Shown: positions 16,396-36,519 of the stretch, one piece after another
Position numbering within the stretch: position 1 is the stretch's first letter
How the letters are laid out: each line of letters begins with the position of its first letter
Assembly (NCBI RefSeq): GCF_900163645.1
Contig: NZ_FUKM01000057.1
Location: forward strand, 496,001 to 560,000
Length of the DNA: 64,000 nt
Source of the DNA: Halomonas citrativorans
GTDB taxonomy: Bacteria; Pseudomonadota; Gammaproteobacteria; Pseudomonadales; Halomonadaceae
Reading direction: 5' to 3'
The notes under the pieces: model-generated
Databases searched by the model: none
What the model was told of the DNA's origin: nothing
The model's input: the letters and a program-made list of their open reading frames with translations, nothing else
Position numbers and translations under genes: made by a program

Positions 16396-17973
16396 TTAGC
16401 CCTCGCGCTTACCATCCACCAGTCGCGAAACCTTAAAAGGATTATCGTCGCGCAATACTTCTGGCAGTAAACCAGCAGGCAAGTCCTGATAGCAAACCGG
16501 GCGCAGGAAGCGATAAATCGCAGCGCTGCCGACAGACGTGGTGCGGCTGTCGGACGTTGCCGGGAACGGTCCGCCATGCACCATCGCGTGACCCACTTCG
16601 ACCCCGGTCGGCCAGCCATTGGCCAGGAGTCGACCGGCGCGCTGCTCAAGCGTGGGTAGAAGTGATTTTGCGGCCTCCAGGTCGCCATCGTCCATTTGCA
16701 GGGTAATGGTCAGCTGACCTTCGAGCTGGTCGGCAACACGCTGCATCTCCTGCGCGTCAGCGCACTCAATGACCAGCGAGGCAGCGCCGAAGATTTCGCC
16801 CTGAAGCGCGTCATTGTTAAGGAAATTCTGAGCGCTGGCTACAAATAGCCCTGTCTGGCAGCTATGCGGTCCGTCGCCGGCTTTGCCGCGCGCTACTTCC
16901 TTGACGCTGGATTGGCCCGAAAGGGCGGAGACACCGCTTTGATACGCCTCATGGATGCCGGGCGTCAGCATCGTTTGGGCGCCGCTGGCTTTAACGGCTT
17001 CCTCTGCGGTAGTGATAAACGCATCCAGGTCAGCGCCTTTAAGGCCAATGACCAGACCAGGGTTGGTGCAGAACTGACCCGCACCCATGTTCAGCGAAGC
17101 GACAAAACCTTCGGCAATCTTGTTGCCGCGCGCTTGCAGTGCCTCGGGGAACAGAAATACCGGGTTGATGCTGCTCATCTCGGCATAAACGGGAATCGGC
17201 TCGGGACGCGCCTGGGCAGTCGCCATCAAGGCCATGCCGCCGCTGCGTGAGCCGGTAAAACCAACCGCTTTAATACGCGGGTCTGAGACCAGCGCTTGGC
17301 CAATATCGCGACCTGAGCCGAACAGCAGCGAAAACACCCCTTCCGGCATGTTGCACTTGGCCGCAGCGCGTTGAATAGCGCGGCCTACCAGCTCAGAAGT
17401 GCCGGGGTGGGCAGAGTGGCCCTTGACCACCACCGGGCAGCCTGCTGCCAGCGCCGAGGCGGTATCGCCCCCTGCTACGCTGAAGGCCAGCGGAAAGATG
17501 CTGGCGCCGCACACGGCCACGGGGCCAAGCGGAATATGGCGCTGACGTAAGTCGGCGCGAGGCATGGGTTGGCGATCAGGCTGGGCCGGGTCGTGGCGTA
17601 AATCCAGCCATTCGCCCGCACGTACTACCGAGGCGAACAGCCGCAGCTGGCCGCAGGTCCGGCCTCGCTCGCCTTCAAGGCGCGCTTCAGGCAGGCCCGT
17701 TTCGGCCACGCCGCGCTGGGTCAGGTCAGCACCAATGGCCTCAATTTCTTCGGCAATGGTTTCCAGGAAGTGAGCGCGCGCTTCAAGTGACGTTTCGCGG
17801 TATTGATCAAATGCCGCTTCGGCAAGCTGGCAGGCTTTTTCAACCTCGGCGCGGCTACCACCGGGGTAGCGCGGCTCCAGTGTCTCGCCGGTGGCCGGGT
17901 TAACGGCAACAATATCGGCTTGAGTACCGGTGACGGCCTGTTGACCGATAAGCAGTGTACCTTGCAGTGTCAT
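16396..17973 (-). CDS. 2-oxoglutarate-semialdehyde (2,5-dioxovalerate) dehydrogenase, copy 1, probably inactive
   Basis: NAD(P)+-dependent aldehyde dehydrogenase of 525 aa, close to enzymes oxidising 2-oxoglutarate semialdehyde to 2-oxoglutarate. The nucleophile C302 ([10 protein letters not shown]), general base region (YAEMSS, E265) and K184 are kept. However, the conserved asparagine that stabilises the oxyanion (N159 in the second copy, GASNFP) is I159 here, and F155 is C155. It is almost identical to the gene at 33505-35082. The ATG at 17973 is preceded by AGGAGG; the frame extends to 18003. Likely a decaying or altered duplicate. Confidence 0.9.
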
Positions 17974-17985
17974 AAAACCTCCTGT
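16406..17985 (-). repeat. Long direct repeat, left copy (ALDH gene)
   Basis: About 1,580 bp repeated in the same orientation at 33515-35094. By eye the stretch 16709-17497 is identical to the other copy for 789 bp, while both flanks carry scattered differences (roughly 9 in the first 300 bp and about 20 in the last 480 bp). Confidence 0.93.
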
Positions 17986-18009
17986 GTGGATATATTCATA
18001 CATCTGTAT

Positions 18010-18930
18010 TCAGTTAGTTAACCGATACCAATGCAAAGCGTTATCGTGAAGTATGTTTTGACGATAATCGGGGGCGGAAAAGGAAATGGCAGCTTCGACC
18101 AGTCCTAGCCAGTCTGCATAGCTTATTGCGAGGCTAGAAACAGGAAAGTTACTAGCAAAGAGGCAGCGATTTGGCCCGAATAGATCGATGGTTTCGCAGA
18201 GAAGCTCAAGGTTGGCTTTATAGTCCCATTCATGCCAAGGGCTACCTAGCTCTGATAGCTTGACTGCAACATTGGGATTATCCGCTAGCGCGCGCATCCC
18301 CGTACGCCAAGTGCCGATCCCAAGAGAAGTTCGATCCCAAGGCAGCCCTGTGTGATTGAGGATAACTCGTAGTTTAGGGCGCGCTTCCAGCGTTTTTGCC
18401 GCGTCACTCAAGTGCCAAGCGGGAACACGCAGATCCCAGGAAAGATTGCGCTCTTCTAGCATGATTAATCCGTCACACCACTGGCGATCTTGTAGGCTCC
18501 CGGCATTGCCTTTAACTTGATTGATTTGTGCTGATGTTACGGCTGTGACAGGCTTGGCTCTTACGCCCCGGAAAAGTGGCGAATTCATCTGGGCATCAAG
18601 TTGCTCAGAACATTTTGGGGTTCCGAATTCAGCCCAGCCAACATGAGCTGTGGGGAGCTTATGGTCTGTATAGACTGAGTTAATCCATTCCGTTTCTTTT
18701 AGAGGTTGAGAGCGATGTGCTTCGGCTTCGCAATGTACGCTGCCTGCCAAGTGATAGCCCTTAGGAATATGGTGCTTCAAATCCTCAACCAGGAAGGGTC
18801 GCTTTATTGATGTATAGTCGCCTAGAAAGAAGCCTCTTACTGGTTTCTCTTCAAGCCAAGGATAACTAACACTGCCATCAAGAGCCCAGAGATGATGATG
18901 AGCATCTATGAGTAGCTGTTTGGCATCCAT
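18010..18930 (-). CDS. Amidohydrolase-family protein (COG3618, sugar lactonase-like)
   Basis: 306-aa TIM-barrel hydrolase. The HxH metal motif sits at the N-terminus (IDAHHHLWALDG), and the later segments FRGVRAKP, LRVILNHTGLP and LFASNFPVSSL match COG3618 proteins. That family includes L-fuconolactonase, L-rhamnono-lactonase and galactarolactone isomerase. AGGAG precedes the ATG. Together with the neighbouring sugar-acid genes it suggests hydrolysis or isomerisation of an aldonolactone; the exact substrate is unknown. A paralogue is at 24022-25032. Confidence 0.82.
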   Translation of the reverse strand: MDAKQLLIDAHHHLWALDGSVSYPWLEEKPVRGFFLGDYTSIKRPFLVEDLKHHIPKGYHLAGSVHCEAEAHRSQPLKETEWINSVYTDHKLPTAHVGWAEFGTPKCSEQLDAQMNSPLFRGVRAKPVTAVTSAQINQVKGNAGSLQDRQWCDGLIMLEERNLSWDLRVPAWHLSDAAKTLEARPKLRVILNHTGLPWDRTSLGIGTWRTGMRALADNPNVAVKLSELGSPWHEWDYKANLELLCETIDLFGPNRCLFASNFPVSSLAISYADWLGLVEAAISFSAPDYRQNILHDNALHWYRLTN

Positions 18931-18975
18931 TGCGGCATCTCCTCTCTAGAAGTCTGTGTATACAATGGCCAGTCC

Positions 18976-19908
18976 TTAATTACGCACGAGAAGTTGAGAT
19001 ACATCAGGTTCAGAGCGGCAATTGAAGCTATTTACTACATGCCCAGATTCCAAGTTCAAAATATCAACCCGGTCGCCTTTCATGGAAACAAAAGCATGCT
19101 GTCCATCGGGATGAAAGCTCATGGCAATAGGGATGCTGTCTAACTCAATAAGCCCAAGAGAATTGAGTTCCTGGTCAAAAACTGACAGTGAACTCTCTCC
19201 ATAATTTGTAGTAATTAAACGGTTAAATGGATCAGAGTAGATGCGATTGGGATCGCGGCCTGTCGTTGCGCTGTTTTCTATAGTCATCGACTCAGTATTA
19301 ATGGCAACGATAGTGTCATCATCACGGTTGCTAATGAAAAGCTTGCCTTCATCAACGGATAAAGCATTGCCTTCTGGCCTACGCCCTGGAATCATTGCGA
19401 TAGGCATGAATGTAGCGTCATGGGGCTTAAATTTGGTGATAGTGTTGCTGAGAAGATTAACTCCATAAGCCCAATCGCCTTTACGGGTAAGAGCAAACAA
19501 GTGGGTCTTATAACCACCTGAAGATACGGCAAGATTTGGAGCTGTAGCAGTGAGAGGATTATTGAACATTAATAAAGTATTGTGCCCCTCACTCATAGCG
19601 TAAAGCCGATCTTGATCGTCTATACCTAGCCCATGAATACGATAATAAGGCCACGTACTGAGGGTGTTGACGAGCTCAAAGGTATTAAGGTCAATTACAA
19701 ATACAGAACATCCTCCTTGGTCACCAATGCAGTCAGCTCCTAAAATACCATAATGACCAACATAGGCATGCTTGCCTTGAGAATCGACAACAAACTCATG
19801 AGGATAGTCAGGAAGCCGAATACTTTTGAGTTCTTTTCCGCTTTGAACGTCATAAAGGCTTAAAGTGTGGGCGCATTTTTGATTAAGAAGCAAGTGTTCA
19901 CTAGCCAT
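18976..19908 (-). CDS. Seven-bladed beta-propeller protein of unknown function (possible lactonase)
   Basis: 310 aa without a signal peptide, made of repeated blades (for example YDVQSGKELKSI, VFVIDLNTFELV, DDTIVAINTESMTI, DRVDILNLESGHVV) as in YVTN/lactonase-like propellers. GGAG lies 8 nt before the ATG. It is embedded between a lactonase-like amidohydrolase and a TRAP binding protein, so a cytoplasmic sugar-lactonase role is reasonable but unproven. It does not look like SMP-30/gluconolactonase. Confidence 0.7.
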   Translation of the reverse strand: MASEHLLLNQKCAHTLSLYDVQSGKELKSIRLPDYPHEFVVDSQGKHAYVGHYGILGADCIGDQGGCSVFVIDLNTFELVNTLSTWPYYRIHGLGIDDQDRLYAMSEGHNTLLMFNNPLTATAPNLAVSSGGYKTHLFALTRKGDWAYGVNLLSNTITKFKPHDATFMPIAMIPGRRPEGNALSVDEGKLFISNRDDDTIVAINTESMTIENSATTGRDPNRIYSDPFNRLITTNYGESSLSVFDQELNSLGLIELDSIPIAMSFHPDGQHAFVSMKGDRVDILNLESGHVVNSFNCRSEPDVSQLLVRN

Positions 19909-19929
19909 CTATACATCTCCAAATGTTAA

Positions 19930-19958
19930 ATAGGCATCCAGTTAAGTCGGATGCCTAT
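19930..19958 (-). terminator. Hairpin after a TRAP binding-protein gene
   Basis: Perfect 10-bp stem (ATAGGCATCC / GGATGCCTAT), loop of 9 nt, between the binding-protein stop (19987) and the propeller gene. On the minus strand it is followed by TTTAACATTT, a weak T-rich tail. Confidence 0.65.
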
Positions 19959-19986
19959 GGTATTAATTAAATTATAAATTTAAAGA

Positions 19987-20964
19987 TTACTGAAGTACCT
20001 CTTGAATAGCATCCGTCCACTCGCTACCGTTATTATTTATATAACTATCCCAAGTAGGGAGAACAATGGTTTGAAAGGCGGAAGTGTCGACCTCCTCTTC
20101 AATTTGCACGCCGTTAGCACGCATTTCATTGAGAATTTCTTGCTCGCTCTCAATGTTTAATTCGCGCTGGTAATTCCCTGCATCACGTGCGGAAGTTAGC
20201 AGGATTTCCTGATGTTCAGGTGATAGGCTGTCGAATTTTTCTTGATTCATTACCATTATGAGTGATGTATAGGCCTGGTTAGTTAATGAAAGATAGTCTT
20301 GAACCTCATGAAAACCAGCCGACCAAACAATCCCGACTGGGTGGTCTTGTGCGTCAACAGTACCGGTCTCAAGTGCTGTATAAAGTTCACCTATTGGCAT
20401 TGGAACGGGATTCGCACCAAGTAATGAAAATGCCTCAATAAGTGATTCATTAGAGTTGGTTCGCATGACAAGCCCCCGAACATCCTCGGGAGTTTTAATG
20501 GGACGTTTGGAGTTTGTCATCGCACGAAAGCCAACTTCCCAAAACGCTAGTCCTTTCAGGTTTTTATCTGTCAAAAGATTCAGTGCTCGCTGGCCAATAT
20601 CACCGTCAAGCACTTGATAAGCCTCTTCTCGATTAGCGAATATATAAGGCAAATCGAAAGCACCAAGGGCCGGTTCAAGGCCAGTAAAATTTGGATTTCC
20701 CGATAGTTCAATGTCGATCAGTCCGTTGCGTACAGCCGCAATCATTTGCTGATCACCTCCTAGCAAGCCATTACCGAAAATATTAATGGTAATGTCGCCG
20801 TTGGTGCGTTCATCAACCAGCTCAGCAAAGCGTTCCGCAGCGGCTTGTTGGGTGTCGCTATCAGGTGCCGCATGTGCCAGCTTTAAGACTGTGCTCGCCT
20901 GTACCTGAGTTAATGATCCAGCGATTATTAGAGCAGATGCCGATACTTTAATTAGAGGTTTCAT
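19987..20964 (-). CDS. TRAP transporter substrate-binding protein (DctP family), A
   Basis: 325-aa periplasmic binding protein; the signal peptide starts MKPLIKVSASA and ends near QVQA. DctP landmarks: GNGLLGGDQQMI, GLAFWEVGFR, the ligand-arginine segment LVMRTNSN, and ELYTALETGTVDAQ. The frame extends to 20997, but the ATG at 20964 starts the signal peptide. It lies downstream of the dctQ-dctM pair at 21069-22959 and is probably its main binding protein. Aspartate replaces the usual glycine in VDAQDHP. Confidence 0.9.
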   Translation of the reverse strand: MKPLIKVSASALIIAGSLTQVQASTVLKLAHAAPDSDTQQAAAERFAELVDERTNGDITINIFGNGLLGGDQQMIAAVRNGLIDIELSGNPNFTGLEPALGAFDLPYIFANREEAYQVLDGDIGQRALNLLTDKNLKGLAFWEVGFRAMTNSKRPIKTPEDVRGLVMRTNSNESLIEAFSLLGANPVPMPIGELYTALETGTVDAQDHPVGIVWSAGFHEVQDYLSLTNQAYTSLIMVMNQEKFDSLSPEHQEILLTSARDAGNYQRELNIESEQEILNEMRANGVQIEEEVDTSAFQTIVLPTWDSYINNNGSEWTDAIQEVLQ

Positions 20965-21068
20965 AGTGTCTCGCTTGTTATTGATTTTAATTCTCATTCA
21001 CATTGGTTTTATGTATGTGAACATGATTTAAGCCTGCAAAGCAGACATGTTTTACATTGATTAAAGAA

Positions 21069-22349
21069 TTATCCAGCTAGCCAATAAAGGGGTACGGTAA
21101 TGATTTGTGGGAAGGCGACGAACAGCAAAAGAATAACCATATATGCCAAGGCAAATGGCATAACACCTGAAACTGCTTTTTCGAATTTTAGATTGCCAAT
21201 ACTAGTGATTACATTAAGAACATTGCCGACCGGCGGAGTGATTAAACCAATAGCACAGTTAAGAACAAACATAATGCCAAAGTAGACTGGGTCAATGCCT
21301 GCAAGCTTAACGATTGGCATTAGTATAGGCGTGAGCACCAGAATAGTGGGCGTCAGATCCATGACCATACCAACGATTAGCACTATCCCCATAATTGCTA
21401 GCATTAATAATCGCGGATTATCAACTAACGGGGAAAGTAGATCAGCAACCATCATCGGTAATTGAGCAATACTAATGAGCCATGAAGCTACCATGGCAGC
21501 TGCTACCAGAAACATTACAATAGCAGTGCTACGTGCGGCTTGCGTTAAAACGCTGTAAAGTTCAGCTATATTTAATTCTCTATAAATAACAGTAGCAACA
21601 AAGATTGCATATACAGCAGCTACTACGCCAGCTTCCGTTGGGGTAAAAATCCCTGTTTTAATACCACCGATAATAATGACTGGTAGTAGTATAGCCCAAA
21701 AGCTCTTTTTTAAAGCTTCCCACCGTTCTGCACGGGTTGCCTTTTTTGCAACAACCAAATCCTCTTTACGAGTCATAAATAGCCACATTAGCACTAATGT
21801 GGCTCCCATAATGAGTCCAGGTACGATACCTGCCAAAAAAAGTTTACTAATGGAAATGCCGCCTGCCACACCAATAATAATAAGAGGAATAGACGGAGGG
21901 ATAATGGGAGCAATAATACCACCTGCTGCCATTAATCCGGAGGAACGACCAAGCGGATAACCTGCTTGACGCATCATCGGTAGAAGCATACTGGCCAATG
22001 CGGCAGTATCTGCTACCGCAGAACCAGATAAGCTAGCCATGATAATAGCTGCAAAAATGGCTACAAAGCCTAGGCCGCCTTTACGATGGCCCACTAATGT
22101 CATCGCTAACGCAACTATGCGCTTTGACAGGCCGCCTCGTGACATTACCTCTCCGGCAACCAGAAAGAAGGGGATTGCTAATAACGTGTAACTATCTGCT
22201 CCATTGACCAAATTTTGAGCCAATATTTGAGAGTTAAAAAGATCAAGGTGTAACATTAATACGACAGCACTTACTAGCAATGCGAAAGCAATCGGGATGC
22301 TCAAGCCTATAGATGCAAGTAAAGAGCCAAGAAAAAGCGTAATTGTCAT
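21069..22349 (-). CDS. TRAP transporter large permease (DctM family)
   Basis: 426-aa membrane subunit. Motifs: SGSAVADTAALASMLLPMM, IIPPSIPLIIIGVAGGISI, IFTPTEAGVVAAVYA. The AAGGAT ribosome-binding site lies inside the end of the dctQ gene, 2 bp from it, so expression is coupled. The usable binding proteins are A (next gene), B (23010) and C (25078). Confidence 0.93.
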   Translation of the reverse strand: MTITLFLGSLLASIGLSIPIAFALLVSAVVLMLHLDLFNSQILAQNLVNGADSYTLLAIPFFLVAGEVMSRGGLSKRIVALAMTLVGHRKGGLGFVAIFAAIIMASLSGSAVADTAALASMLLPMMRQAGYPLGRSSGLMAAGGIIAPIIPPSIPLIIIGVAGGISISKLFLAGIVPGLIMGATLVLMWLFMTRKEDLVVAKKATRAERWEALKKSFWAILLPVIIIGGIKTGIFTPTEAGVVAAVYAIFVATVIYRELNIAELYSVLTQAARSTAIVMFLVAAAMVASWLISIAQLPMMVADLLSPLVDNPRLLMLAIMGIVLIVGMVMDLTPTILVLTPILMPIVKLAGIDPVYFGIMFVLNCAIGLITPPVGNVLNVITSIGNLKFEKAVSGVMPFALAYMVILLLFVAFPQIITVPLYWLAG

Positions 22350-22350
22350 G

Positions 22351-22959
22351 CTAAATATCCTTTTCTTTATCTAGCTTGTGGGTGCCCTGAAAGGTTGATG
22401 GCATGATAAGTCGATAAAAAAGTATAATTGACATTAGTAGCCCAGCTATTAAGCCTGCCAAGTAAAAAACACCCACTGGAATGCCGCTAATTGGAGAAAT
22501 GTTGTCCCAATTTAGCAGTGTCTGATAATAACTTCCGTTTAATAACATCAAACAGCATCCCAGCATGACAAGTGTTACCAGTCGATTAAGTACAGCCTGC
22601 ACAAGCACAGGAAAACGTTCTGACAGCGTTGTAACGCGTAAATGTTCGTGACGCAGTAAAGCCGTAACGGCACCCAGAAAAGTTATCCAGACAAAGAGAA
22701 ATCGAGACAACTCAACACTGACTGAAATGCCACTATTAAAACCATAGCGCAATACCACGTTGGTAAATACAAGGGTGATCATGCTGATCAGTGCCAAGAC
22801 CATTAGAAAGTTGAGCAAACGCTCCACTCCTTTAGCCAAAAATGCAACTTGTATAGCAATACCAAGTGCTTTTTTATGTACTGGTCCCTCTGAGGAAGGA
22901 ACAGTGGTTCTATCGTGTTTATACATGAGCGATTGCCCCCAAGAGACATGTAAAAACAT
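22351..22959 (-). CDS. TRAP transporter small permease (DctQ family)
   Basis: Up to 202 aa, four helices, with the WITFLGAVTALLRHEHLRV segment typical of DctQ. The start is uncertain: the longest form begins at 22959, while an ATG at 22926 (preceded by GGGGG) gives 191 aa. Membrane partner of the following large permease. Confidence 0.88.
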   Translation of the reverse strand: MFLHVSWGQSLMYKHDRTTVPSSEGPVHKKALGIAIQVAFLAKGVERLLNFLMVLALISMITLVFTNVVLRYGFNSGISVSVELSRFLFVWITFLGAVTALLRHEHLRVTTLSERFPVLVQAVLNRLVTLVMLGCCLMLLNGSYYQTLLNWDNISPISGIPVGVFYLAGLIAGLLMSIILFYRLIMPSTFQGTHKLDKEKDI

Positions 22960-22975
22960 GCCTCTTTACTATCGT

Positions 22976-22991
22976 AATGATCAGAATCATT
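22976..22991 (-). promoter_or_regulatory. Fur-box-like palindrome
   Basis: AATGAT-CAGA-ATCATT, perfect 6-bp arms, in the gap between binding protein B and dctQ. It resembles half of the Fur consensus (GATAATGATAATCATTATC) but the centre is one base longer, so it may simply be a weak post-binding-protein hairpin. Confidence 0.25.
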
Positions 22992-23009
22992 CTCGAAAAT
23001 CCGATAATG

Positions 23010-24011
23010 CTAACGACTGTTGCTAATTGCGTTATCGAAATCAGCTACGAACTCTGGGCTTAGTACTTCACGATGTTGTTCAAGCATGCTATTAAGTTGC
23101 TGATGCATGTGTTGACGTTCGACGAGAGGTACTTCATTAATTTGCATTTTTTTACTCAATTCTGACAATAATTCTTGATTTAATTCTCTACTAATGCTGC
23201 GCTGGTAAAGAGTTGCTTCTCGTGCAGCTTCTTTAATAGCTTCCCTCTGGGTATCACTTAGTTTATTCATAAACCGATCTGATGTAAGTAAAACCAGTGC
23301 ATCATACGCATGCGATGTCTGAGATAAGTAATCTTGAACTTCATAAAAGCGTTTGGTATCTATGACAGTGTAAGGGTTTTCCTGACCATCAACGGTATTA
23401 GTTTCAAGTGCGGTAAATAGTTCGTTAACCGGCATTGGGACAGCATTAGCGTCGAGTCCATTAAAAAGGTCTATATATAAAGCATTTTGCATTGTGCGAA
23501 TTTTTAGGCCGCTTAAATCTTCCAGGTTCTCGATAGGGCGCTTTGAGTTAGTAATATGCCTAAAGCCGTTCTCCCAAAAGCCAAGCCCTACTAATCCTTT
23601 ATCGTTAAGGCTGGCAAGAAGAGCTGCCCCGACAGGGCTATCCAATACCGCATCTGCATGCGCTTCGTCATCGAATTGGAATGGTAAACTGATAATACTA
23701 AAGTCTGGGTTTAGGCTTGACAGGGTGGCTGTTGAAGGAACAGTGAGATCCAGCGTTCCAGCCTGAACCATTGATGTCATATTGACATCACTACCAAGAA
23801 TCCCGTTACTGAATACTTGTACATCAACATCGCCATTGGTTTTCTGCTCGACTAGCTCGGCAAAATGATGAGCTCCTAAGGTTTGAGGATGTGAATCCGG
23901 AAGGCTGGTCCCGAGACGGGCACTAATATCTGCCGCAAAGATTTGTGGTGAAATACAGCTAAGACCTGCAACCAAAACGGCAATGGAGAAAATATGATTA
24001 TGGCGTGTCAT
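23010..24011 (-). CDS. TRAP transporter substrate-binding protein (DctP family), B
   Basis: 333 aa with a signal peptide ending near ISPQIFAA. Landmarks: SNGILGSDVNM, GLGFWENGFRHITNSKRPI, LKIRTMQN, ELFTALETNTVDGQENP. AAGGAC lies upstream of the ATG. It is paralogous to A and C but more diverged around the ligand helix. It sits directly upstream of the dctQ-dctM pair and directly downstream of an amidohydrolase gene. Confidence 0.9.
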   Translation of the reverse strand: MTRHNHIFSIAVLVAGLSCISPQIFAADISARLGTSLPDSHPQTLGAHHFAELVEQKTNGDVDVQVFSNGILGSDVNMTSMVQAGTLDLTVPSTATLSSLNPDFSIISLPFQFDDEAHADAVLDSPVGAALLASLNDKGLVGLGFWENGFRHITNSKRPIENLEDLSGLKIRTMQNALYIDLFNGLDANAVPMPVNELFTALETNTVDGQENPYTVIDTKRFYEVQDYLSQTSHAYDALVLLTSDRFMNKLSDTQREAIKEAAREATLYQRSISRELNQELLSELSKKMQINEVPLVERQHMHQQLNSMLEQHREVLSPEFVADFDNAISNSR

Positions 24012-24021
24012 AATGAAGTCC

Positions 24022-25032
24022 TTAGTTTATTAATGGTTTTATAGCTCTTGTGGAGTTATGGCCAAGGGGTTCCTGGGCGGGCGGTGCTAGTAAATAACTT
24101 CGTAATGCGTTGTCACAAAATACGGATAATTTTTCACTACGAGTAAGTTTTGAGCTAAGTTGTTTGAAGTGGCCCCATAATGCTTCAAGATCGGTTACTA
24201 AACCGTCAACAGGAAAGTTGCTGGCAAACATACAACGTTCTGCTCCAAAAGTTTCTAAAGCAGTATGAATTAGCCAAGTATTGTCCTTTAGCCGCCAAGG
24301 CTGATCTTTTAGGCCTATACCAGAAAGTTTAAGCATGACGTGTGGATAAGCGGCAACTTGTTCTAATGCCTCTTTCCATCCTGCTAGTGTTTCATGTGTG
24401 CGATCATTGGGAACGCCAGCATGATTTATGACTACTGGTACATCTGGGTAACGCTCTAATAAATAAACTAATTCGTTTAGATGCCACCATGGAACTTGTA
24501 GCTCGAAGATGAATTTATACTGAGCCAGTAGCGCATAGCCGCGTTGAAATCGAGGGCATTTGAGAGAGCCGGGCATGCTGTGATTGGCTTTGTACTTATC
24601 GCGAGGCATGGTGGTTGGTTTATGCCGGACTCCGCGAACTAGCGGCCAAGCCGATAGCTTTTCTAGTTGAGCATCAATGTTATCCGCATCTAACCAAGCC
24701 TGAGCAATCATGGCATTTGGCCAGCAGGTTCTACCGTTAAGGGCATCTATCCAGCGAGCCTCTTTTAGCGCATCCCCATGCTGCCATTCAGCTTCCATGT
24801 AAACGCATCCAAGTACGTTGTGATGTCCACACTGCTGCTGATAGTCCTGTGGAAAAAAAGGTATGCGAATACTGCTATAGTCTCCATATCGAAAAGGGAT
24901 CATTGGCTCATCACACAGCCATGGATGGTAATTAGATTGAGGATCCCAGAAATGAAGATGTGCATCTATAATGGGAAGATCTTGATCTTCTCCACTATCA
25001 AGGTAACGTTGTCGATGTTCATTTATCTGCAT
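24022..25032 (-). CDS. Amidohydrolase-family protein (COG3618, sugar lactonase-like), second copy
   Basis: 336-aa TIM-barrel hydrolase, paralogue of 18010-18930. HxH motif H25/H27 in IDAHLHFWDP; other shared segments are VRGVRHKP, VPVVINHAGVPNDR and CMFASNFPVDGL. It lies between two TRAP binding-protein genes. A sugar lactonase or lactone isomerase is the likely role. Two such enzymes in one cluster may act on different lactones or successive steps. Confidence 0.82.
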   Translation of the reverse strand: MQINEHRQRYLDSGEDQDLPIIDAHLHFWDPQSNYHPWLCDEPMIPFRYGDYSSIRIPFFPQDYQQQCGHHNVLGCVYMEAEWQHGDALKEARWIDALNGRTCWPNAMIAQAWLDADNIDAQLEKLSAWPLVRGVRHKPTTMPRDKYKANHSMPGSLKCPRFQRGYALLAQYKFIFELQVPWWHLNELVYLLERYPDVPVVINHAGVPNDRTHETLAGWKEALEQVAAYPHVMLKLSGIGLKDQPWRLKDNTWLIHTALETFGAERCMFASNFPVDGLVTDLEALWGHFKQLSSKLTRSEKLSVFCDNALRSYLLAPPAQEPLGHNSTRAIKPLIN

Positions 25033-25077
25033 GCTCTTATAGCCTCATCGATAAACCGCAATGTGACGATTCACGGA

Positions 25078-26082
25078 TTAATTCGTGTACTTCGTACGCT
25101 CAACTGCATCAAGTAATTCGCTACCGTGCTGAGCAGTAAATTCGTTACGAACTAATTCAGCTACCCTGCCATGCATAGATGCACGATCAGGCTGTTCTGC
25201 GACTTGCATCCCCTTGTTCTTAAGAAATTCCAAGTCGCTAGATATCCTCTCTTGATTAATTTGGCGCTGGTATTGAGCAGCGCTTTGTGCTTCATCACGC
25301 AATATGAGCTGTTGCTCTTCCGATAGCTCACTAAAGCGATTTTTATTCATAACCAATGGCGCTGCGGTATAGGCATGTGCCGTTAGTGAAAGATGTTTTT
25401 GAACATCATATAAGCTCGCCGAGCGAATTAAGCTAACGGGATTTTCTTGACCGTCTACTGTTCTGGTTTCTAATGCAGTGAAAAGCTCTGCGAAAGGCAT
25501 GGGGACTGGATTGGCACCCAATGCCTCAAATGCAGCGATATGCACTGGATTAGGTGTCGTTCTTAATTTCAGCCCTTTGATATCATTAGCTGACTCGATT
25601 GCACGGCGCGAGTTGATTAAATTACGAAATCCAATTTCCCAGAATGCGAGGCCTTCAAGGTTTTTCTCTCGCATGCTTGTAAGTAAGTTCAGTCCGATCT
25701 CTCCATCTAGCACTCGATATGCTTGATCGTAGTTATCAAAAAGAAATGGCAGATCAAGCAAGCTAAGTTGGCTAGCTAATCCACTAAAATAAGGATTGCC
25801 AGATAATTCGATATCAATTGTTCCACTACGGACACCAGTGATCATGGCTTGATCATTTCCGAGTTGGCCATTTGGAAAAATACGAATATTAATTTCGTCG
25901 CCGCTACGTTCTTTTACTCTCTCGGCGAAGCGTAACGCGGCCAAATGTTGAGAGTCATCTACTGGGTGTGCATGGGCCAGTGTTAATGTTGTAGCCGCTT
26001 GGGTGTAGGCAAATGGAGCAAAGAGAGCCACCGATAACGTTGTAGCTATAACTTTTTTTAATAAATAGAACTTGGTTATCAT
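25078..26082 (-). CDS. TRAP transporter substrate-binding protein (DctP family), C
   Basis: 334 aa, signal peptide ending near AYTQA. Landmarks: PNGQLGNDQAM, GLAFWEIGFRNLINSRRAI, LKLRTTPNPVH, ELFTALETRTVDGQENP. It is closest to protein A. It has no membrane genes of its own next to it, so it probably shares the dctQ-dctM pair at 21069-22959. Confidence 0.9.
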   Translation of the reverse strand: MITKFYLLKKVIATTLSVALFAPFAYTQAATTLTLAHAHPVDDSQHLAALRFAERVKERSGDEINIRIFPNGQLGNDQAMITGVRSGTIDIELSGNPYFSGLASQLSLLDLPFLFDNYDQAYRVLDGEIGLNLLTSMREKNLEGLAFWEIGFRNLINSRRAIESANDIKGLKLRTTPNPVHIAAFEALGANPVPMPFAELFTALETRTVDGQENPVSLIRSASLYDVQKHLSLTAHAYTAAPLVMNKNRFSELSEEQQLILRDEAQSAAQYQRQINQERISSDLEFLKNKGMQVAEQPDRASMHGRVAELVRNEFTAQHGSELLDAVERTKYTN

Positions 26083-26112
26083 TATGGTGGCCTCGAAGTT
26101 AGCGCGGTAATT

Positions 26113-27111
26113 CTAGATAGATTGCACTTTTTTCATTGCAGGATTCTCTTCTGGCATGAATTTGACTGGATTACATAACTTGCGGCCAAGAAGAGGTAGG
26201 TCAATCTCAAAACGGTCACCGTCACGCACAGAAATATTGTCAGCAAAACTGAGCGTTGCAGTGCCAAAGTAATGCACATGTACATCGCCTGGGCGTCGAA
26301 ACTGGGCGTACTTGAAATGGTGGTATTCTAGATTGGCTAGGCTATGCGCCATATTTGCCTCTCCGGTAAGAAAGGTTTTTTCCCATAGAATTTTGTCCTC
26401 GCGAACAATTCGGCTAGTGCCCTCTAAATAATCAGGGAGCTCACCCAGGAATAATTCAGGGCCAAAGCTGCAAGCGCGTAGTTTAGAGTGCGCCAACCAT
26501 AAGTAATTAGCACGCTCAGTGATATGGTCGGAGAATTCGTTCCCAACGGCATAGCCCACCCTATATGGAGTACCGTCAGTAGCATTTATGTAAAGGCCAA
26601 CTAACTCAGGCTCTTCACCCGCATCTTCGGCGAAAAATGGCACCGTAAATGGGCTTTCTGGGGGAACGACGATGCTGCCATCACCTTTATAGAACCATTC
26701 GGGTTGAGCTCCCATTGTGCCTGCAAGAGGTTTACCTCCCTCAACTCCAAGCTTGAACATACGCATGGAATCAGTAAGTTCCTCATTGTTAGCTTGTACA
26801 CTTGCATGCATTGCAGAGCGGGTATCGGCGCTGCCCAGATGGGTTAAACCAGTGCCGGTAACAAAGCAGTGGGCTGGGTCAGGATGTGTAAGCGGAGGCA
26901 GCAGTAAACCTAAATCTATTGCCTGATTGTAATCCAACAAATCATGGCTACGATGAGATTCAATGAATGCAGTAAGAGAGGTGCCCTCGTCGAGAGCGGC
27001 CTTTGCTAACGCATAGGTCCCTCCGGGGTAATCAATCACACGAAGCTGAATTGAACTTTCAACCACCGCGGCACGAATGCCGCGAGAAGTTTTCACTTGT
27101 ACGATTCGCAT
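26113..27111 (-). CDS. FAH-family protein, GguC/AraD1-like, island copy
   Basis: 332-aa protein of the fumarylacetoacetate hydrolase superfamily. Conserved acidic metal-site region: [14 protein letters not shown], with [11 protein letters not shown] and [17 protein letters not shown]. Relatives catalyse dehydration or hydrolysis of 2-keto-3-deoxy or 2,4-diketo sugar acids. It is paralogous to 35094-36092 (long identical stretches such as [12 protein letters not shown] and [11 protein letters not shown]) but AT-richer. It follows the dehydratase gene, so it should act on that enzyme's 2-keto-3-deoxy product. Confidence 0.82.
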   Translation of the reverse strand: MRIVQVKTSRGIRAAVVESSIQLRVIDYPGGTYALAKAALDEGTSLTAFIESHRSHDLLDYNQAIDLGLLLPPLTHPDPAHCFVTGTGLTHLGSADTRSAMHASVQANNEELTDSMRMFKLGVEGGKPLAGTMGAQPEWFYKGDGSIVVPPESPFTVPFFAEDAGEEPELVGLYINATDGTPYRVGYAVGNEFSDHITERANYLWLAHSKLRACSFGPELFLGELPDYLEGTSRIVREDKILWEKTFLTGEANMAHSLANLEYHHFKYAQFRRPGDVHVHYFGTATLSFADNISVRDGDRFEIDLPLLGRKLCNPVKFMPEENPAMKKVQSI

Positions 27112-27122
27112 TAGTAAGACTC

Positions 27123-28295
27123 TTATTCGATGATATGGAACTGATCAAAATAACGTTCGTTGAGCTTTAAGCCGAGGCCGGGCGTATTATCGTCAAGATC
27201 GATAAACCCATTGACTGGCTCAGGATCACCTTCAAACAGGTAATAAAACAGCTCGTTACCAATCTCTACATCGTGTACTGGGAAGAATTCGGACATAGGA
27301 GATGCAAGCGTAGACATTGTTAAATGATAGTTATGCATCTGACCTGCATGAGGGATGACAGGTACGCTAAACGATTCAGCAAGAGCATTGATCTTATGCG
27401 CGGCGGTAATGCCGCCAACCCGATTAGTATCGTATTGGATAACAGAAACTGCACGTTTTTCAAGCAGTTGGCGGAAGCCATAAGAAGTGAACTCGTGCTC
27501 GCCGCCTGAAATAGGGATACTGGTAAGTTGGTTGAGCTCTGCGTAGCCATCAATATCATCAGCAATCACTGGCTCTTCAAGCCATCGTGGCTGAAAGCGT
27601 TCCAATCGAGGTAACATGCGTTTGGCATACTCGAGGTTCCAGCCCATATAGCATTCAAGCATTAAGTCGATATCATCGCCGATTACTTCACGCACTGCCG
27701 CAACGCTATTCAGGTTTTCGCGCATGCCCGAAGGGCCGTCTTTGGGACCATAGCCAAAGCGCATCTTCATCGCTTGGAAACCTTGATCAAGATAAGACTG
27801 TGCTTCTTCCTGCATGCCTTTTAGATCAGTGCGATAAAGTTTGGATGCGTAGCAAGGAATTTTCTCTTTTGTGCGACCTCCTAATAATTTAAAAACAGGC
27901 TTGTTTACGGCTTTACCCATGATGTCCCAAATAGCAATATCGACTCCAGATATTGCCGCCATACCGATGCCTTTACGACCCCATGCATGCGTGGAGCGAT
28001 ACATCCGTTGCCAGAGATATTCGTAGTCAAAAGGATCTTGGCCAATTACTAGCGGGGCAAGATACTGATCGATAATTGCTTTAGCGATACGTGGTGCTAA
28101 CGCCACATTGCCAAGCCCTACAATGCCGTTGTCGGTTTCAATTTCAACCACCGTCCATCCATGGAAGCGGAAGGTGCCCATGGAATCTCCTTTATCCCAA
28201 AGCTCATCCATTGCGTTGGAGCAAAAGTGAGGGGTCGGCGTTACAGTATGGCCTTTCCATTCAAATACGCGGGTGCGGACATTAGTGATTTTCAT
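27123..28295 (-). CDS. Enolase-superfamily sugar-acid dehydratase (L-rhamnonate dehydratase-like)
   Basis: 390-aa MR/MLE-type enzyme that would dehydrate an aldonate to a 2-keto-3-deoxy acid. Expected Mg2+ ligands: E214 (LMLECYMG), E240 (WLEEPV) and E266 (SGGEHEF). The catalytic histidine is H316 ([12 protein letters not shown]), with D289 nearby. SGGEHEF and the PHAG segment point to the rhamnonate-dehydratase subgroup rather than mannonate or galactarate dehydratases. AAGGAA precedes the ATG. L-rhamnonate, L-lyxonate or another aldonate are possible. Confidence 0.82.
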
Positions 28296-28322
28296 TAAGG
28301 TTTTCCTTAAGTGAGTATTTGG

Positions 28323-29348
28323 TTAAATATTGGTGTTCAGTCGCTGTTGACGAAGGTTCTTGCCCATCCGACAAGCGATGATGAAGGCGTTACGAGTTGG
28401 ACTAACATTAGCTTTTCCTTGGCCAGCGATATCAAATGCCGTGCCATGGGCAGGAGTAGTAATGGGGATGGGAAGGCCTCCTTGTACAGTTACGCCCTCC
28501 ATAAAGCCCATTAGTTTGATCGCAATTTGGCCTTGGTCGTGGTACATGGTGACCACTGCATCAAACTCGCCATCACGAGCCTTAATAAATAGGGTGTCGG
28601 CGGGGAGGGGGCCACTAATTGGATAGCCTTGGGCTCTGCACGCCTCAACCGCAGGCGTAATGATCTCGATTTCTTCGCGTCCACAAGTGCCGCCTTCCCC
28701 TGCATGAGGATTAAAGGCTGCTACTACAACGCGTGGCTCTGGATTGCCTGCCAGTTGCAGTGCGTCGTACATCAATCGGCTAGCCGCGACAATACGCTCT
28801 TCAGTGATATATTCGGCCGCATCTTTAAGTGGAATATGCGAGGAAATTCGGGCCGTCCACAGATTGCCCAAAGTATTAAACTCACAAAAATAGTTCTTAA
28901 CATTTAAATAGTTAGCGAAGAAATGTAACTCGTCTTCATACTCAAGCCCGCCTTTTTTCATGGAGTATTTATTTAAAGGCGCAAAGCAAATCGCATCTAC
29001 CTCATTGTCTAGCGCTGCACTCATACAGCGTTTTAACAATGCGAGTACGGAAGCACCGCCAGCAGCTGTTTCTTGTGCATAGCTAATGTCACTTTCAGCA
29101 ACACTCTCTGTTGGTAAAAATACTGGGGTGGAGTGTAAACGTGCTTGGCTAAATTCGCTTATTTCAACCAAATTATGGTGAATGCCTGCAACACGTTGTC
29201 CTTCTTGCCACAGCCAGCGATCACCCAGCAATACGGTATGTACATCTTTAAAAAGGTCGGCTTCATTGAATAGCTTAGCGATTAGCTCTGGGCCAACACC
29301 AGCAGGGTCACCTAGGATTACCGCGATTACAGGTTTTGAATCTTTCAT
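28323..29348 (-). CDS. PdxA-like (4-hydroxythreonine-4-phosphate dehydrogenase family) oxidoreductase
   Basis: 341-aa NAD(P)+-dependent dehydrogenase/decarboxylase-type enzyme. All three metal-binding histidines of PdxA are kept: H171 (SSHIPLKD), H215 (NPHAGEGG) and H270 (MYHDQGQ). The GEGG loop is followed by TC where biosynthetic PdxA usually has HF/HM. Lying between a TRAP operon and a sugar-acid dehydratase, it is a catabolic PdxA2-like enzyme rather than the vitamin B6 enzyme. The DUF1537 kinase that normally partners catabolic PdxA2 is absent from the window. Confidence 0.85.
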   Translation of the reverse strand: MKDSKPVIAVILGDPAGVGPELIAKLFNEADLFKDVHTVLLGDRWLWQEGQRVAGIHHNLVEISEFSQARLHSTPVFLPTESVAESDISYAQETAAGGASVLALLKRCMSAALDNEVDAICFAPLNKYSMKKGGLEYEDELHFFANYLNVKNYFCEFNTLGNLWTARISSHIPLKDAAEYITEERIVAASRLMYDALQLAGNPEPRVVVAAFNPHAGEGGTCGREEIEIITPAVEACRAQGYPISGPLPADTLFIKARDGEFDAVVTMYHDQGQIAIKLMGFMEGVTVQGGLPIPITTPAHGTAFDIAGQGKANVSPTRNAFIIACRMGKNLRQQRLNTNI

Positions 29349-29370
29349 ATAGAACTCCTGTTAAACGATT

Positions 29371-30651
29371 TTAATAAAACAGATCAACTAAATAGAGAGA
29401 AACTTCAGGAATATAGGTTACTAATAGTAATACGATAAACAATACACCGATCATAGGGAGGTTAACCCGGGTAGTATTCCACATATCGGTTTTAGCAATT
29501 GAACAGGCGGTGGCAAGTACAGACGCGACAGGAGGCGTTTGCTGGCCAATGGCTAAGTTAAGCGTCAGGATTAAGCCAAAGTGAATTGGATCAATGCCGA
29601 TTTGAGTGACTAGCGGCATTACTATTGGCACTACTAGAATGATTGCTGCTGCCCCATGCAGGAACATACCTAATAAAAGTAGTAAAATATTGAGTAGTGC
29701 TAATACCGCAATAGGATTCTCAGTTAAAGTAGTGATTTGTTGCGCCAGTTGTTGCGGGAGTTGCATTTCTGTAAGAAATAGCCCTAGTACTGCTGATGTT
29801 GCGACTAGTAACATAACAACGGCCGTTTGTATAACGCCATCTGTTACCGCACGATAAAGAACTTTTAAGTTAAGTTCTCTATATATAAGTCCGCCAATAA
29901 TTAAGGCAGCCAGTACGGCTATGCCCGCTCCTTCAGTTGCAGTAACCAAGCCACCAAATATGCCACCTAGAATTATAATTGGTAGTAATAAGGCCCAGGC
30001 AGCTTCCTTGAAAGCTTTACCTAAGCGGCGAAGAGAAAAGGCTTCTTCGCGAGGCAAGTTATACTTAACTGCATAGTAGTAACAGAAACATGCAAGGCCG
30101 ATGCCGCCAAGAATCCCTGGGATAATGCCTGCTACGAATAACTGAACAATAGAAACCTCGGCGATCGCTCCGTAAAGAATCATTGATAAAGAAGGAGGGA
30201 TAATGACAGCCAAGGATGCAGACGAAGACGTGATAGCTGCAGAAAACTCGGGGTTGTAGTTTTTACGTTTCATTTCTGGAATTAAAATAGAGCCTGTCGC
30301 TGCTACGTCTGCAACAGCGGAGCCAGAAATTTCAGCAAAAAACATTGATACACCAACATTAACCATCGCCAGGCCTCCTCTTACAAATCCCACCATAGCT
30401 GTCACTAAATTGATCAGTCGGGTAGAAATGCCAGAGGTGTTCATCAGTGCGCCAGCAAAGATGAATAACGGAATAGCAATTAACGGAAAGTTAGTAGCAC
30501 CATTAAAAAGTGTTAAGGGAACATTAAGAAGATGCTGAGGCCCCATGTTTATAAAAACACCAATAACACCTACAGCTCCAATTGCGACTGCAATAGGTAC
30601 ATTGATAAGCACCAAAGAAAATAAGGCTGCGATAACTACTAGTAAAATCAT
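29371..30651 (-). CDS. TRAP transporter large permease (DctM family), second island system
   Basis: 426-aa membrane subunit. Motifs: SGSAVADVAATGSILIPEM, IIPPSLSMILYGAIAEVSI, LVTATEGAGIAVLAAL; here the usual TPTEAG is TATEGAG. Its ATG overlaps the dctQ stop (ATGA). Followed after 22 bp by the pdxA-like gene, so probably one operon. Confidence 0.92.
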   Translation of the reverse strand: MILLVVIAALFSLVLINVPIAVAIGAVGVIGVFINMGPQHLLNVPLTLFNGATNFPLIAIPLFIFAGALMNTSGISTRLINLVTAMVGFVRGGLAMVNVGVSMFFAEISGSAVADVAATGSILIPEMKRKNYNPEFSAAITSSSASLAVIIPPSLSMILYGAIAEVSIVQLFVAGIIPGILGGIGLACFCYYYAVKYNLPREEAFSLRRLGKAFKEAAWALLLPIIILGGIFGGLVTATEGAGIAVLAALIIGGLIYRELNLKVLYRAVTDGVIQTAVVMLLVATSAVLGLFLTEMQLPQQLAQQITTLTENPIAVLALLNILLLLLGMFLHGAAAIILVVPIVMPLVTQIGIDPIHFGLILTLNLAIGQQTPPVASVLATACSIAKTDMWNTTRVNLPMIGVLFIVLLLVTYIPEVSLYLVDLFY

Positions 30652-31202
30652 GGCCGACTCTCCCTTAAATCTTCCTCGGCTAAACGAATTGCTTCTTCGA
30701 TAGCTTCATGCTCGCTGTCGACGCCATTTTTCATCTTTTTCCAAGCGCCAGGTAGAGATAACAGTTCACAAAGAATAAACAATGCCGCGCTAATAGGGAC
30801 TGCCGATTGGGTAATCGTAAGGCTAATACTAGGAAGAGAAACCAAGCGATCCCATGCCAGTATGTCCAAGACTCGGTAGCCGTAATAAGCAATTATCAAG
30901 AAGAAACCAATCACAATAGCTTCGCTTAAAACAAATAAGCTAGCTCTGACAGCTGAGGGAGCATTGCTTACAAGCCCTGGAAATCCCATATGCGCACGTT
31001 TAATGGCTGCCAGGTTGGCACCGTAAAAAGTTAACCAGGCAAGTCCTATAGATGCTACCTCATCGTACCAGGTAATAGAGCTTCCAAAGGTTCTAAATGC
31101 CACAGCTGCAAGTACTATGAAAGTAAGAGCAAGTAGCAAAGTAACGGTAAAGATTTCTAATAACTTTTCGATTAGAAACCGCAGCTTTTCAATTAGTGCC
31201 AT
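30648..31202 (-). CDS. TRAP transporter small permease (DctQ family), second island system
   Basis: 184 aa, four helices, with SITWYDEVASIGLAWLTFYGA and KRAHMGFPG as in DctQ proteins. The C-terminus is charged and cytoplasmic. The ribosome-binding site is weak (AT-rich leader), and a hairpin separates it from the binding-protein gene. Confidence 0.88.
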   Translation of the reverse strand: MALIEKLRFLIEKLLEIFTVTLLLALTFIVLAAVAFRTFGSSITWYDEVASIGLAWLTFYGANLAAIKRAHMGFPGLVSNAPSAVRASLFVLSEAIVIGFFLIIAYYGYRVLDILAWDRLVSLPSISLTITQSAVPISAALFILCELLSLPGAWKKMKNGVDSEHEAIEEAIRLAEEDLRESRP

Positions 31203-31226
31203 TTTTTATACCCGTTGCTGGACGCA

Positions 31227-31248
31227 TGGGCGTCTGTAATGACGCCCA
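31227..31248 (-). terminator. Hairpin between TRAP dctP and dctQ
   Basis: Perfect 8-bp stem (TGGGCGTC / GACGCCCA), 6-nt loop, 16 nt after the binding-protein stop. Same position as the hairpin at 14459 in the other dctPQM operon. No adequate T-run on the minus strand. Confidence 0.6.
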
Positions 31249-31263
31249 AAAGGTAAATACTTT

Positions 31264-32244
31264 TTAATCGTTGGCTAGGCTCATGGCGCGATCTATTAAT
31301 GCTTGACCATTTTCAACTTGCTCAGCAAACGCCTCATATACAGGAACACTGGCACTGATAAATGCTTCTCGGTCCACTTCGTTAATTTCAACGCCGGAAT
31401 CTCGCATCGTATCTAGCAGCTCTTGATCCAATTCAGCGCCTCTTGCAAAAGCCCATAATTGAGTTTCAGCAGCCGCCTCGCTAATTGCATCACGAACCTC
31501 ATCTGAGAATTGATCCCACTTGCCTAAACCGGCGGTTAGCCATATAGGTGTATAAACATGGTTCGTTAGCGATAAATATTCTTGAACTTCGTGAAGCCGA
31601 GCGCCGTAAATATTACTGAGAGGGTTTTCTTGTCCGTCGATTACACCTGTTTGGAGCCCAACAAATACTTCTGAAAAAGCCATGGGAGTAGGGTTGGCGC
31701 CCCACGTTGAGAACATACGGGTTCGCCAGTCACTTTGAGGAGTGCGAATTCTTAGTCCTTCTAGATCAGTGGGAGTAGTGATAGCTCGGCGACTGTTGGT
31801 AATTTGACGAAAACCGTTTTCCCATGTAGAGATAATTTTTAAGCCTTGCTCCTCTGCTCCTTCAGCAAGATCCTGCATAACAATTTCATCATCTATTTTC
31901 TTTAAATGGTCACGATCGCTGACCAAGTAAGGAAGATCGAAAAGAGCAAAATTTGGCGCTACAGATGACATGATCGATGAAATTGCAGCTAAGTCGACGG
32001 TGCCCATGCGTAGGCGTTGGATAAGTTGGCGCTCATCTCCCAACTGGCCACTATCGTAATATTCAATTTGGATATCGTCGCCTAATCTCTCTTGGAGTTG
32101 GCGTTTAAACTCCAATGCGGTTTGGCCTTGCAAGCTTTGGGATGATCCACCAATAGCGAATACAATTTTTTCTTGGTTAGCTTGGGCTTGCGAAGAACAC
32201 AAGACCAAAGCTAAAGCCGTAGCGCTGAGAGAGAGTTTGAACAT
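31264..32244 (-). CDS. TRAP transporter substrate-binding protein (DctP family), D
   Basis: 326-aa periplasmic binding protein with a signal peptide ending near SSQAQA. Landmarks: YDSGQLGDERQLIQ, STWENGFRQITNSRRAI, the ligand arginine in LRIRTPQSDW, and EVFVGLQTGVIDGQENP. AAGGGG precedes the ATG at 32244; the frame extends to 32319 without support. First gene of the second TRAP operon, divergent from the GntR regulator. Confidence 0.91.
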   Translation of the reverse strand: MFKLSLSATALALVLCSSQAQANQEKIVFAIGGSSQSLQGQTALEFKRQLQERLGDDIQIEYYDSGQLGDERQLIQRLRMGTVDLAAISSIMSSVAPNFALFDLPYLVSDRDHLKKIDDEIVMQDLAEGAEEQGLKIISTWENGFRQITNSRRAITTPTDLEGLRIRTPQSDWRTRMFSTWGANPTPMAFSEVFVGLQTGVIDGQENPLSNIYGARLHEVQEYLSLTNHVYTPIWLTAGLGKWDQFSDEVRDAISEAAAETQLWAFARGAELDQELLDTMRDSGVEINEVDREAFISASVPVYEAFAEQVENGQALIDRAMSLAND

Positions 32245-32412
32245 GACGAGCCCCTTCTTTTTAGGCTTATTGTGTTTGTCTGGTATGCTGGTTGGATTAC
32301 CGGACCAGTCGGTAGGCAATTTAGATTCCTATGGCCTTGTTAGTCAATAGGGGGTCGGTAAATATATACCTTTGTCTAAAGGGTGATCATATGTGGAAAT
32401 CATGGTCGTTTT

Positions 32413-32431
32413 TGGTCTAGTATATAGACCA
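32413..32431. promoter_or_regulatory. Palindromic operator at the island GntR gene
   Basis: TGGTCTA-GTATA-TAGACCA, a perfect 7-bp inverted repeat ending 19 bp before the regulator ATG. The TGGTC/GACCA arms are typical of FadR-subfamily GntR sites. Autoregulation and control of the divergent TRAP operon are likely. Confidence 0.6.
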
Positions 32432-32450
32432 GTTGAGATGGGAAAATTTT

Positions 32451-33200
32451 ATGTCTAATTCAGCATTTGCTTTTGAAAAAGCTCTCAAAAATAAAACTAA
32501 AAAGGAAGTACTGGTTGAAAAACTAATTGATATGCTTAAAACAGGACTGCTAAGAGAGGGAGATTTATTGCCTAGCGAGCGCGAGTTGGCACAGCTTTTT
32601 GAAGTTAGTAGAGAGACAGTACGAGGTGCTCTTGCTCAAATGGCTGCCTATGATTTGATAAGCGTTTCTCAAGGCAGTAAAACACGTATAAGTGCAGATG
32701 AGCATGCTCTATCACGTTTTACAGATACCCAAGAGGCTTGCCGGGTAAGCGAGATGGAGAGCTTCGATTTGGACTGTGTTTTCGAGAGCCGGATTATTGT
32801 CGAAGCTGCTATTGCTAGGCGAGCTGCTATTAGAATAGATATGGAAGGCATTCAAAAGCTGGAGCGATTGCTTGACGCACAGAGCAAGCTATTCGATTCG
32901 CCTGTCTATTTTCAGCTATCTGATCAGAGCTTTCATAAACTTATCTCTGAGTATGCTAATAATTCCTTGTTGTTGCGTTATGCTCAAGAACTCTACGGGT
33001 ATGGGCTTAGTATACGCCGCCAAGTAATGGTTGAGGACGGTGCGATTGAGCGGAGTTATGGGGAGCATGCTCGCATTGTTGATGCTTTGAAACGCGGTGA
33101 TCCCGATGCGGCCGAGCGAGCGATGCTTGCTCACTTGGATAGTGTTTATCGCACGACGAAAGAGAAATCAGCCTGTGAAATAGATAAATCCGTAAATTAG
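32451..33200 (+). CDS. GntR-family regulator (FadR/FCD subfamily) of the island
   Basis: 249 aa. N-terminal winged helix (LPSERELAQLFEVSRETVRGALAQM) and C-terminal all-helical FCD ligand domain (ending HARIVDALKRGDPDAAERAMLAHL). The ATG at 32451 is preferred; the frame begins at a TTG (32433) inside the operator flank. Divergent from the second TRAP operon and probably controls the island genes in response to a sugar acid. Confidence 0.88.
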   Translation: MSNSAFAFEKALKNKTKKEVLVEKLIDMLKTGLLREGDLLPSERELAQLFEVSRETVRGALAQMAAYDLISVSQGSKTRISADEHALSRFTDTQEACRVSEMESFDLDCVFESRIIVEAAIARRAAIRIDMEGIQKLERLLDAQSKLFDSPVYFQLSDQSFHKLISEYANNSLLLRYAQELYGYGLSIRRQVMVEDGAIERSYGEHARIVDALKRGDPDAAERAMLAHLDSVYRTTKEKSACEIDKSVN

Positions 33201-35082: not shown

Positions 35083-35094
35083 GTAGCCTCCTGT
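33515..35094 (-). repeat. Long direct repeat, right copy (ALDH gene)
   Basis: Partner of 16406-17985. Similarity starts at CGCTTACC just inside the 3' end of the gene and ends in the ribosome-binding region (CCTCCTGT on the plus strand). Beyond these points the sequences are unrelated. Confidence 0.93.
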
Positions 35095-36092: not shown

Positions 36093-36519
36093 AGCGACAT
36101 GTCCTTGTTAATACATCAAGCGCTTGCTCATTTGCATGGCAAACAGCAGGCAACCCAATGGTGTCTTGAATGGCATGAGGCGGTGTCATGTCACCCCAAG
36201 CGGGCTATCCGGGAGAATGCTAGCGCTGCTTGTTAGAGGTGGCTGACGCCATTATTTGGAAAGTGCTATTCATCGTAGACGAACTGTTGAGCTTATTGCC
36301 AGTATGTTCAACATATACTTTTGTATGTGTCGACGTTATCACAAAGAAAGCGTAACGTCATAGCGACTCCCTGGATTTAAAGGGAGTTGCCAATATCACG
36401 ATGTCGCCATGAGCATTAATCAAGGGGAAATCATCAGTACCATCCGCTTGTATTACGCCCATGCTTGGAGAGGTTGATTACGTTATGATTGAGAAGAATT
36501 GTAATAGGGTTGAATCATA
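36093..36519. promoter_or_regulatory. Divergent control region of the FAH-ALDH operon and the arabinose GntR gene
   Basis: 427 bp without a gene. It contains one ATGTTCAACAT palindrome (36304-36314) followed by an imperfect ACATATAC-TTTT-GTATGTGT repeat, and a hairpin ACTCCCT/AGGGAGT (36366-36387) in the leader of the GntR gene. Promoters for both directions must be here. Confidence 0.55.
36304..36314. promoter_or_regulatory. Putative GntR operator ATGTTCAACAT
   Basis: 11-bp near-perfect palindrome around a central C, extended by GT and ATAC flanks. The same core occurs twice before the GPH symporter operon (40942 and 40962). FadR-type regulators bind short palindromes of this kind. Confidence 0.55.

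Follow-up and report, generated by a model that had tools for sequence, protein, structure and literature searches.

The oxyanion hole of aldehyde dehydrogenases (ALDHs) consists of an asparagine side chain and the backbone amide of a cysteine, as described in the passages available from one paper (PMC10599462). In 2-aminomuconate-6-semialdehyde dehydrogenase (AMSDH), mutants of the corresponding Asn169 are stated in the available part of a review to have lost dehydrogenase activity, and the same part rates the asparagine as 'not heavily involved in catalysis' save at rate-limiting steps (PMC10143591). These changes were engineered, to Ala, Ser, Asp and Gln, in another ALDH subfamily, and Ile is not listed among them in that part of the review. 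No Asn-to-Ile change at the oxyanion-hole site was found in the partly available literature searched on ALDH mutants, and a literature search on inactive gene-converted ALDH paralogues gave nothing relevant. The N159V mutant of an alpha-ketoglutaric semialdehyde dehydrogenase (KGSADH; PMC5719400, in the portion available) was set aside as an example of the same site, since its spacing to E253 and C287 indicates that it is probably another residue sharing only the number.

The window analyzed here, a stretch of 64,000 nucleotides from Halomonas citrativorans, carries two ALDH genes, referred to as the left and right copies. Among solved structures the right copy is closest to the NADP-ALDH of Vibrio harveyi (PDB 1EYY/1EZ0) and to 3V4C, an aldehyde dehydrogenase (NADP+), with E values of 1.7e-153 and 3.7e-155, and the solved KGSADH (5X5T/5X5U) is no more than a distant match (E 1.2e-12). 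The alignment of 1EYY to the right copy is almost full length, and counting residues off this pairwise alignment equates N159 with Asn147, F155 with Phe143, C302 with Cys289, E265 with Glu253, K184 with Lys172 and H466 with His450. The phenylalanine and asparagine of the motif are present in both 1EYY and 3V4C, whereas the left copy has a cysteine and an isoleucine instead. We take Cys289, Glu253, Lys172 and His450 of the V. harveyi enzyme to have catalytic roles, and hence C302 would presumably be the nucleophile and E265 the base in the window copies. That the motif asparagine is the oxyanion-hole residue, as a sequence-only reading of this DNA had proposed, agrees with the 1EYY alignment and with the available passages on other ALDHs; the left copy thus resembles the AMSDH Asn169 mutants in being altered at this asparagine.

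The two ALDH copies

The genes and codons concerned are as follows.

16396..17973, minus strand: left ALDH gene, 525 aa, with C155 and I159; end gene of the left cluster
33505..35082, minus strand: right ALDH gene, the resident copy, 525 aa, motif VFGASNFP intact
17509..17511, minus strand: codon 155 of the left ALDH, TGC (Cys); Phe in the right copy and in 103/103 homologue rows
17497..17499, minus strand: codon 159 of the left ALDH, ATC (Ile), the oxyanion-hole position; Asn in the right copy and in 103/103 homologue rows
17179..17181, minus strand: codon 265 of the left ALDH, catalytic Glu, intact, aligned to 1EYY
17068..17070, minus strand: codon 302 of the left ALDH, catalytic Cys, intact, aligned to 1EYY

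The two copies are 99% identical, with 34 base differences and six residue differences (65, 155, 159, 436, 506 and 525). The motif reads VCGASIFP in the left copy and VFGASNFP in the right, and the other four residue differences, given as left/right, are A65T, K436Q, V506A and G525Y. Coding positions p in the left gene convert to window coordinates as 17974-p; the cysteine therefore arises from a T>G change on the coding strand at p464 (window 17510, TTC>TGC) and the isoleucine from an A>T change at p476 (window 17498, AAC>ATC), with a silent GGT/GGC difference between them at p468 (window 17506). The sequence-only reading had described both substitutions as single-base changes, AAC to ATC and TTC to TGC, in an otherwise intact reading frame, and all of this was recovered in our comparison; the range it gave, 17497-17509, is one base short (17510 falls outside), and the silent difference had been missed.

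The left gene starts at 17973 with ACAGGAGG before it, and most relatives found by homology search align with the ALDH from residue 1. Its reading frame of 525 aa is open and thus not broken as in a pseudogene. Apart from codons 155 and 159 we did not observe any decay in this gene in the form of a stop or a frameshift, and the amino-acid changes are few. Cys302, Glu265, Lys184 and His466 are all intact, with C302 and E265 located inside a tract that is identical to the right copy. Of the residues expected in a competent ALDH, the left copy therefore retains the nucleophilic cysteine and the general-base glutamate and lacks the oxyanion-hole asparagine, which is replaced by I159.

Both copies score well above the gathering cut-off of 23 for the Pfam profile PF00171 (left 155.8 bits, right 165.2 bits), and similarity to the V. 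harveyi-type ALDH group extends near full length, the query being the right copy, to which the left is 99% identical. The NCBIfam models of KGSADH type remain far under their cut-offs, with 81.9 bits for the left and 86.4 bits for the right copy against 770 for NF042993, and 99.2 and 104 bits against 750 for NF052305.

Gene neighborhoods and origin of the left copy

A long minus-strand series of genes, headed by a plus-strand GntR regulator, ends with the left ALDH; several of the gene names in it rest on matches under the curated cut-off. The right ALDH is preceded by a GguC/AraD1 gene, and its neighborhood also holds an MFS sugar transporter, a GH43 glycosidase, a GntR regulator and an oxidoreductase of Gfo/Idh-like type that gave weak matches only.

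18010..18930, minus strand: amidohydrolase, fuconolactonase-like (80.2 bits, cut-off 400), the next gene upstream of the left ALDH
18976..33200, mixed strands: remainder of the left cluster, with a beta-propeller protein, two TRAP systems and extra binding proteins, a second amidohydrolase, GguC, an enolase-superfamily dehydratase-like protein, a PdxA-like protein and the plus-strand GntR; collinear with the cluster of genome G013
26113..27111, minus strand: second GguC/AraD1 family protein, belonging to the left cluster and scoring 506.4 bits where the curated cut-off is 340
35094..36092, minus strand: GguC/AraD1 family protein adjoining the right ALDH, scoring 534.7 bits where the curated cut-off is 340 and giving no match to Pfam at E 1e-5

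This gene context fits the oxidation of pentoses or sugar acids to 2-oxoglutarate through its semialdehyde. FAH-superfamily dehydratases yielding 2-oxoglutarate semialdehyde are described in the available part of one paper (PMC6336799), and the locus resembles those of the KGSADHs of non-phosphorylative pentose and sugar-acid pathways in its GguC/AraD1 and enolase-superfamily dehydratase-like partners. From the GguC/AraD1 cluster context, 2-oxoglutarate semialdehyde is a plausible putative substrate of the ALDH. The GH43 glycosidase and the MFS_2 sugar transporter (38380-40736) adjoin the right module, a hint that the sugar comes from arabino- or xylo-oligosaccharides.

The GguC-ALDH neighborhood of the right copy is conserved in all six relatives fetched for comparison. 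In the same number of relatives (6/6; L122-L127), TRAP genes (DctM- and DctP-like; about 43% and 34% against the window's own) separate the GguC gene from the GntR regulator of the right module. The window has only 427 bp (36093-36519) between these two genes, which looks like a loss of the resident transporter next to a second cluster with TRAP systems of its own.

At its end position the collinear cluster of G013 has an ALDH with 79% identity to the right copy. At E 1e-60, the amidohydrolase next to the left ALDH was found in two of 82 genus genomes and in 35 of 275 family genomes, many of the matches in the latter being at 38-42% and probably other genes. The 20 best-scoring of the 38 places listed were read, namely the window's own locus and 19 others. 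In ten of these 19 the ALDH beside the amidohydrolase could be read through the motif, and all ten have the phenylalanine and the asparagine, with 66-78% identity to the right copy across the stretch they cover; a further locus ends before the motif and eight have no ALDH within 1.5 kb. Since the cluster's own ALDHs elsewhere are 66-78% identical to the right copy and the left copy is 99% identical to it, the left ALDH was most likely overwritten by the resident type, as far as can be judged from sequence comparison. The two GguC/AraD1 genes (26113-27111 and 35094-36092) contain repeat stretches of 74% and 77% identity; they are far less alike than the ALDH pair, which fits a replacement of the ALDH alone.

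Rarity, polarity and the identical tract

F155 and N159 are both present in 103 of 103 distinct homologue rows, these rows being the closest relatives found and not a random sample. They consist of 102 rows from other genomes and a third ALDH copy of the window's own genome (73%, motif intact), and were drawn from 110 loci: 29 of a larger number of matches in a genus search, the best 80 of 491 from a wider contig search, and the third copy itself. A degenerate DNA pattern of the motif with any codon at position 159 was found in 180 of 275 family genomes, and among the matches listed for it, which lie outside the genus, the rows looked over have AAC or AAT at this codon. The isoleucine version was found in one of the 275 family genomes and in one of 390 in a sample of the order, in both cases only the window's own; the order sample takes in 17 other family genomes already counted, and the control with any residue was counted at the family level only. 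An ancestral shared variant or an isoleucine subfamily was rejected on these counts for the genomes searched. Because the homologues all have F155 and N159 and the isoleucine motif is confined to one genome, the comparison places both F155C and N159I as derived in the left copy, and the direction of change that the sequence-only reading had assumed, a loss on the left, is borne out by these relatives.

Five near relatives polarize 17 of the 34 differences between the copies, five as derived in the left copy and 12 as derived in the right, with 17 unclear. Outside the identical tract the intact right copy (33505-35082) is therefore the more derived of the two (12 against 5 of the 17 polarized differences), with A65T and K436Q among its derived sites along with the C-terminal residue. 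At least one private break of an otherwise invariant site was found in 27 of the 103 rows and at least two in nine, a few of the breaks involving the C-terminus or unresolved residues, and in none of the nine do the breaks fall at 155 or 159; the unusual feature of the left copy is thus the catalytic position and not the number of changes. The clustering of three differences within 13 bp was rejected as evidence in its own right, as it is common by chance (18731 of 20000 random placements, outside the tract, of the 34 differences, which include three of codon 525).

16709..17497, minus strand: left side of the 789-bp tract identical between the copies (p477-1265), beginning one base past the N159I change
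33818-34606, minus strand: right side of the identical tract, the counterpart of 16709..17497

Runs as long as 789 bp were not obtained in any of 20000 placements, whether these were uniform or limited to variable sites (370 sites variable among the five near relatives, 191 of them inside the tract). The flanks of the tract differ by about 4% between the copies, which are sisters in the flank tree (FastTree support 1.000). The identity exceeds the expectation from this divergence, as in a gene-converted paralogue, and a collapsed consensus would look alike; the tract suggests a recent gene conversion, with the collapsed consensus being the less likely source. With the tract and codon 525 omitted, dS is 0.139 and dN 0.0086 (0.0052 without codons 155 and 159). 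The copies were thus constrained for most of their separate history and the damage, if real, would probably be late. A long-standing pseudogene was rejected given the intact frame and the low dN/dS.

Explanations for the altered motif

We consider it moderately probable that the left ALDH, as a redundant paralogue, lost the oxyanion asparagine recently and, with it, most of its dehydrogenase activity. The genome carries a catabolic cluster (16396-33200) that, on comparison, appears to end in an ALDH of its own in several other family genomes. Here this ALDH would have been overwritten or replaced by a copy of the resident gene, over a stretch beginning near the ribosome-binding site and reaching the gene end, after which the copies may have diverged under purifying selection until further conversion made 789 bp identical. 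F155C and N159I would have been gained by the left copy either before or after this conversion. Losing the side chain of Asn159 would leave the hemithioacetal oxyanion with a single hydrogen-bond donor instead of two, and the isoleucine would fill the space, so that hydride transfer is predicted to be strongly impaired despite the intact nucleophile and base. Since the oxyanion asparagine is lost, most of the activity would be lost too, and we infer with good reason that the left protein is nearly inactive. The right copy would cover its function. The case is ordinary in kind and nothing in it is categorically new.

An error of sequencing or assembly, in which wrong bases were placed at the edge of the 789-bp repeat, the left copy really has F155 and N159 and the tract is perhaps partly a collapsed consensus, is unlikely on balance, with a chance large enough to be kept in view. 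The genome is a draft of 65 contigs and the left sequence is known from one assembly of one strain, which makes a consensus error possible; neither amino-acid change is more than 13 bp from the start of the identical tract, and each is a transversion at a residue that does not vary among the 103 homologue rows. However, the silent p468 difference (GGC) that lies between them also occurs in other species, for example in G012 and G034, so the local sequence looks like that of a true separate copy. The flank differences between the copies are mostly silent, as in real genes, and there is no N in the window. The left variant string was found only once in its own genome at up to two mismatches, on which ground a misplaced read or a chimera derived from a different ALDH in the assembly was rejected.

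Retention of a function by the left protein is improbable where this function is a useful dehydrogenase activity, with the oxyanion stabilized by the Cys302 backbone amide alone, or an activity on a different aldehyde. Such a variant would account for the intact frame, the intact Cys302, Glu265, Lys184 and His466 and the low dN/dS of the flanks, but the latter may chiefly reflect the time before F155C and N159I, N159 is invariant in the homologues examined, and the AMSDH mutants at the equivalent residue lose activity according to the available part of the review (PMC10143591). The suggestion of the sequence-only reading that the protein is 'kept for another activity' found no support in our analysis. 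Far less probable still is a non-catalytic partner that joins the right subunit in mixed oligomers, lowering the flux to 2-oxoglutarate, or that acts as a buffer for cofactor or aldehyde. Subunits that are 99% identical would be expected to co-assemble and the reading frame is intact, yet this variant was found in no other genome among the 275 of the family and the 390 of the order that were searched, no sign of selection for such a partner was found, and the simpler explanation by redundancy suffices. There is likewise only a very slight chance that a selected silent left subunit tunes or buffers the oxidation of 2-oxoglutarate semialdehyde, with conversion having kept the rest near-identical and spared the two active-site changes only.

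If the changes are an artefact, they would illustrate that the edges of identical repeats can give false active-site changes. Annotation based on similarity would label both ALDH copies as active. If real, as in the redundant paralogue that we favor, the left gene would be a natural case of a duplicate enzyme soon after the loss of one catalytic residue, with a near-identical intact control 17 kb off in the same genome, and the contribution of the asparagine would be measurable in this ALDH group.
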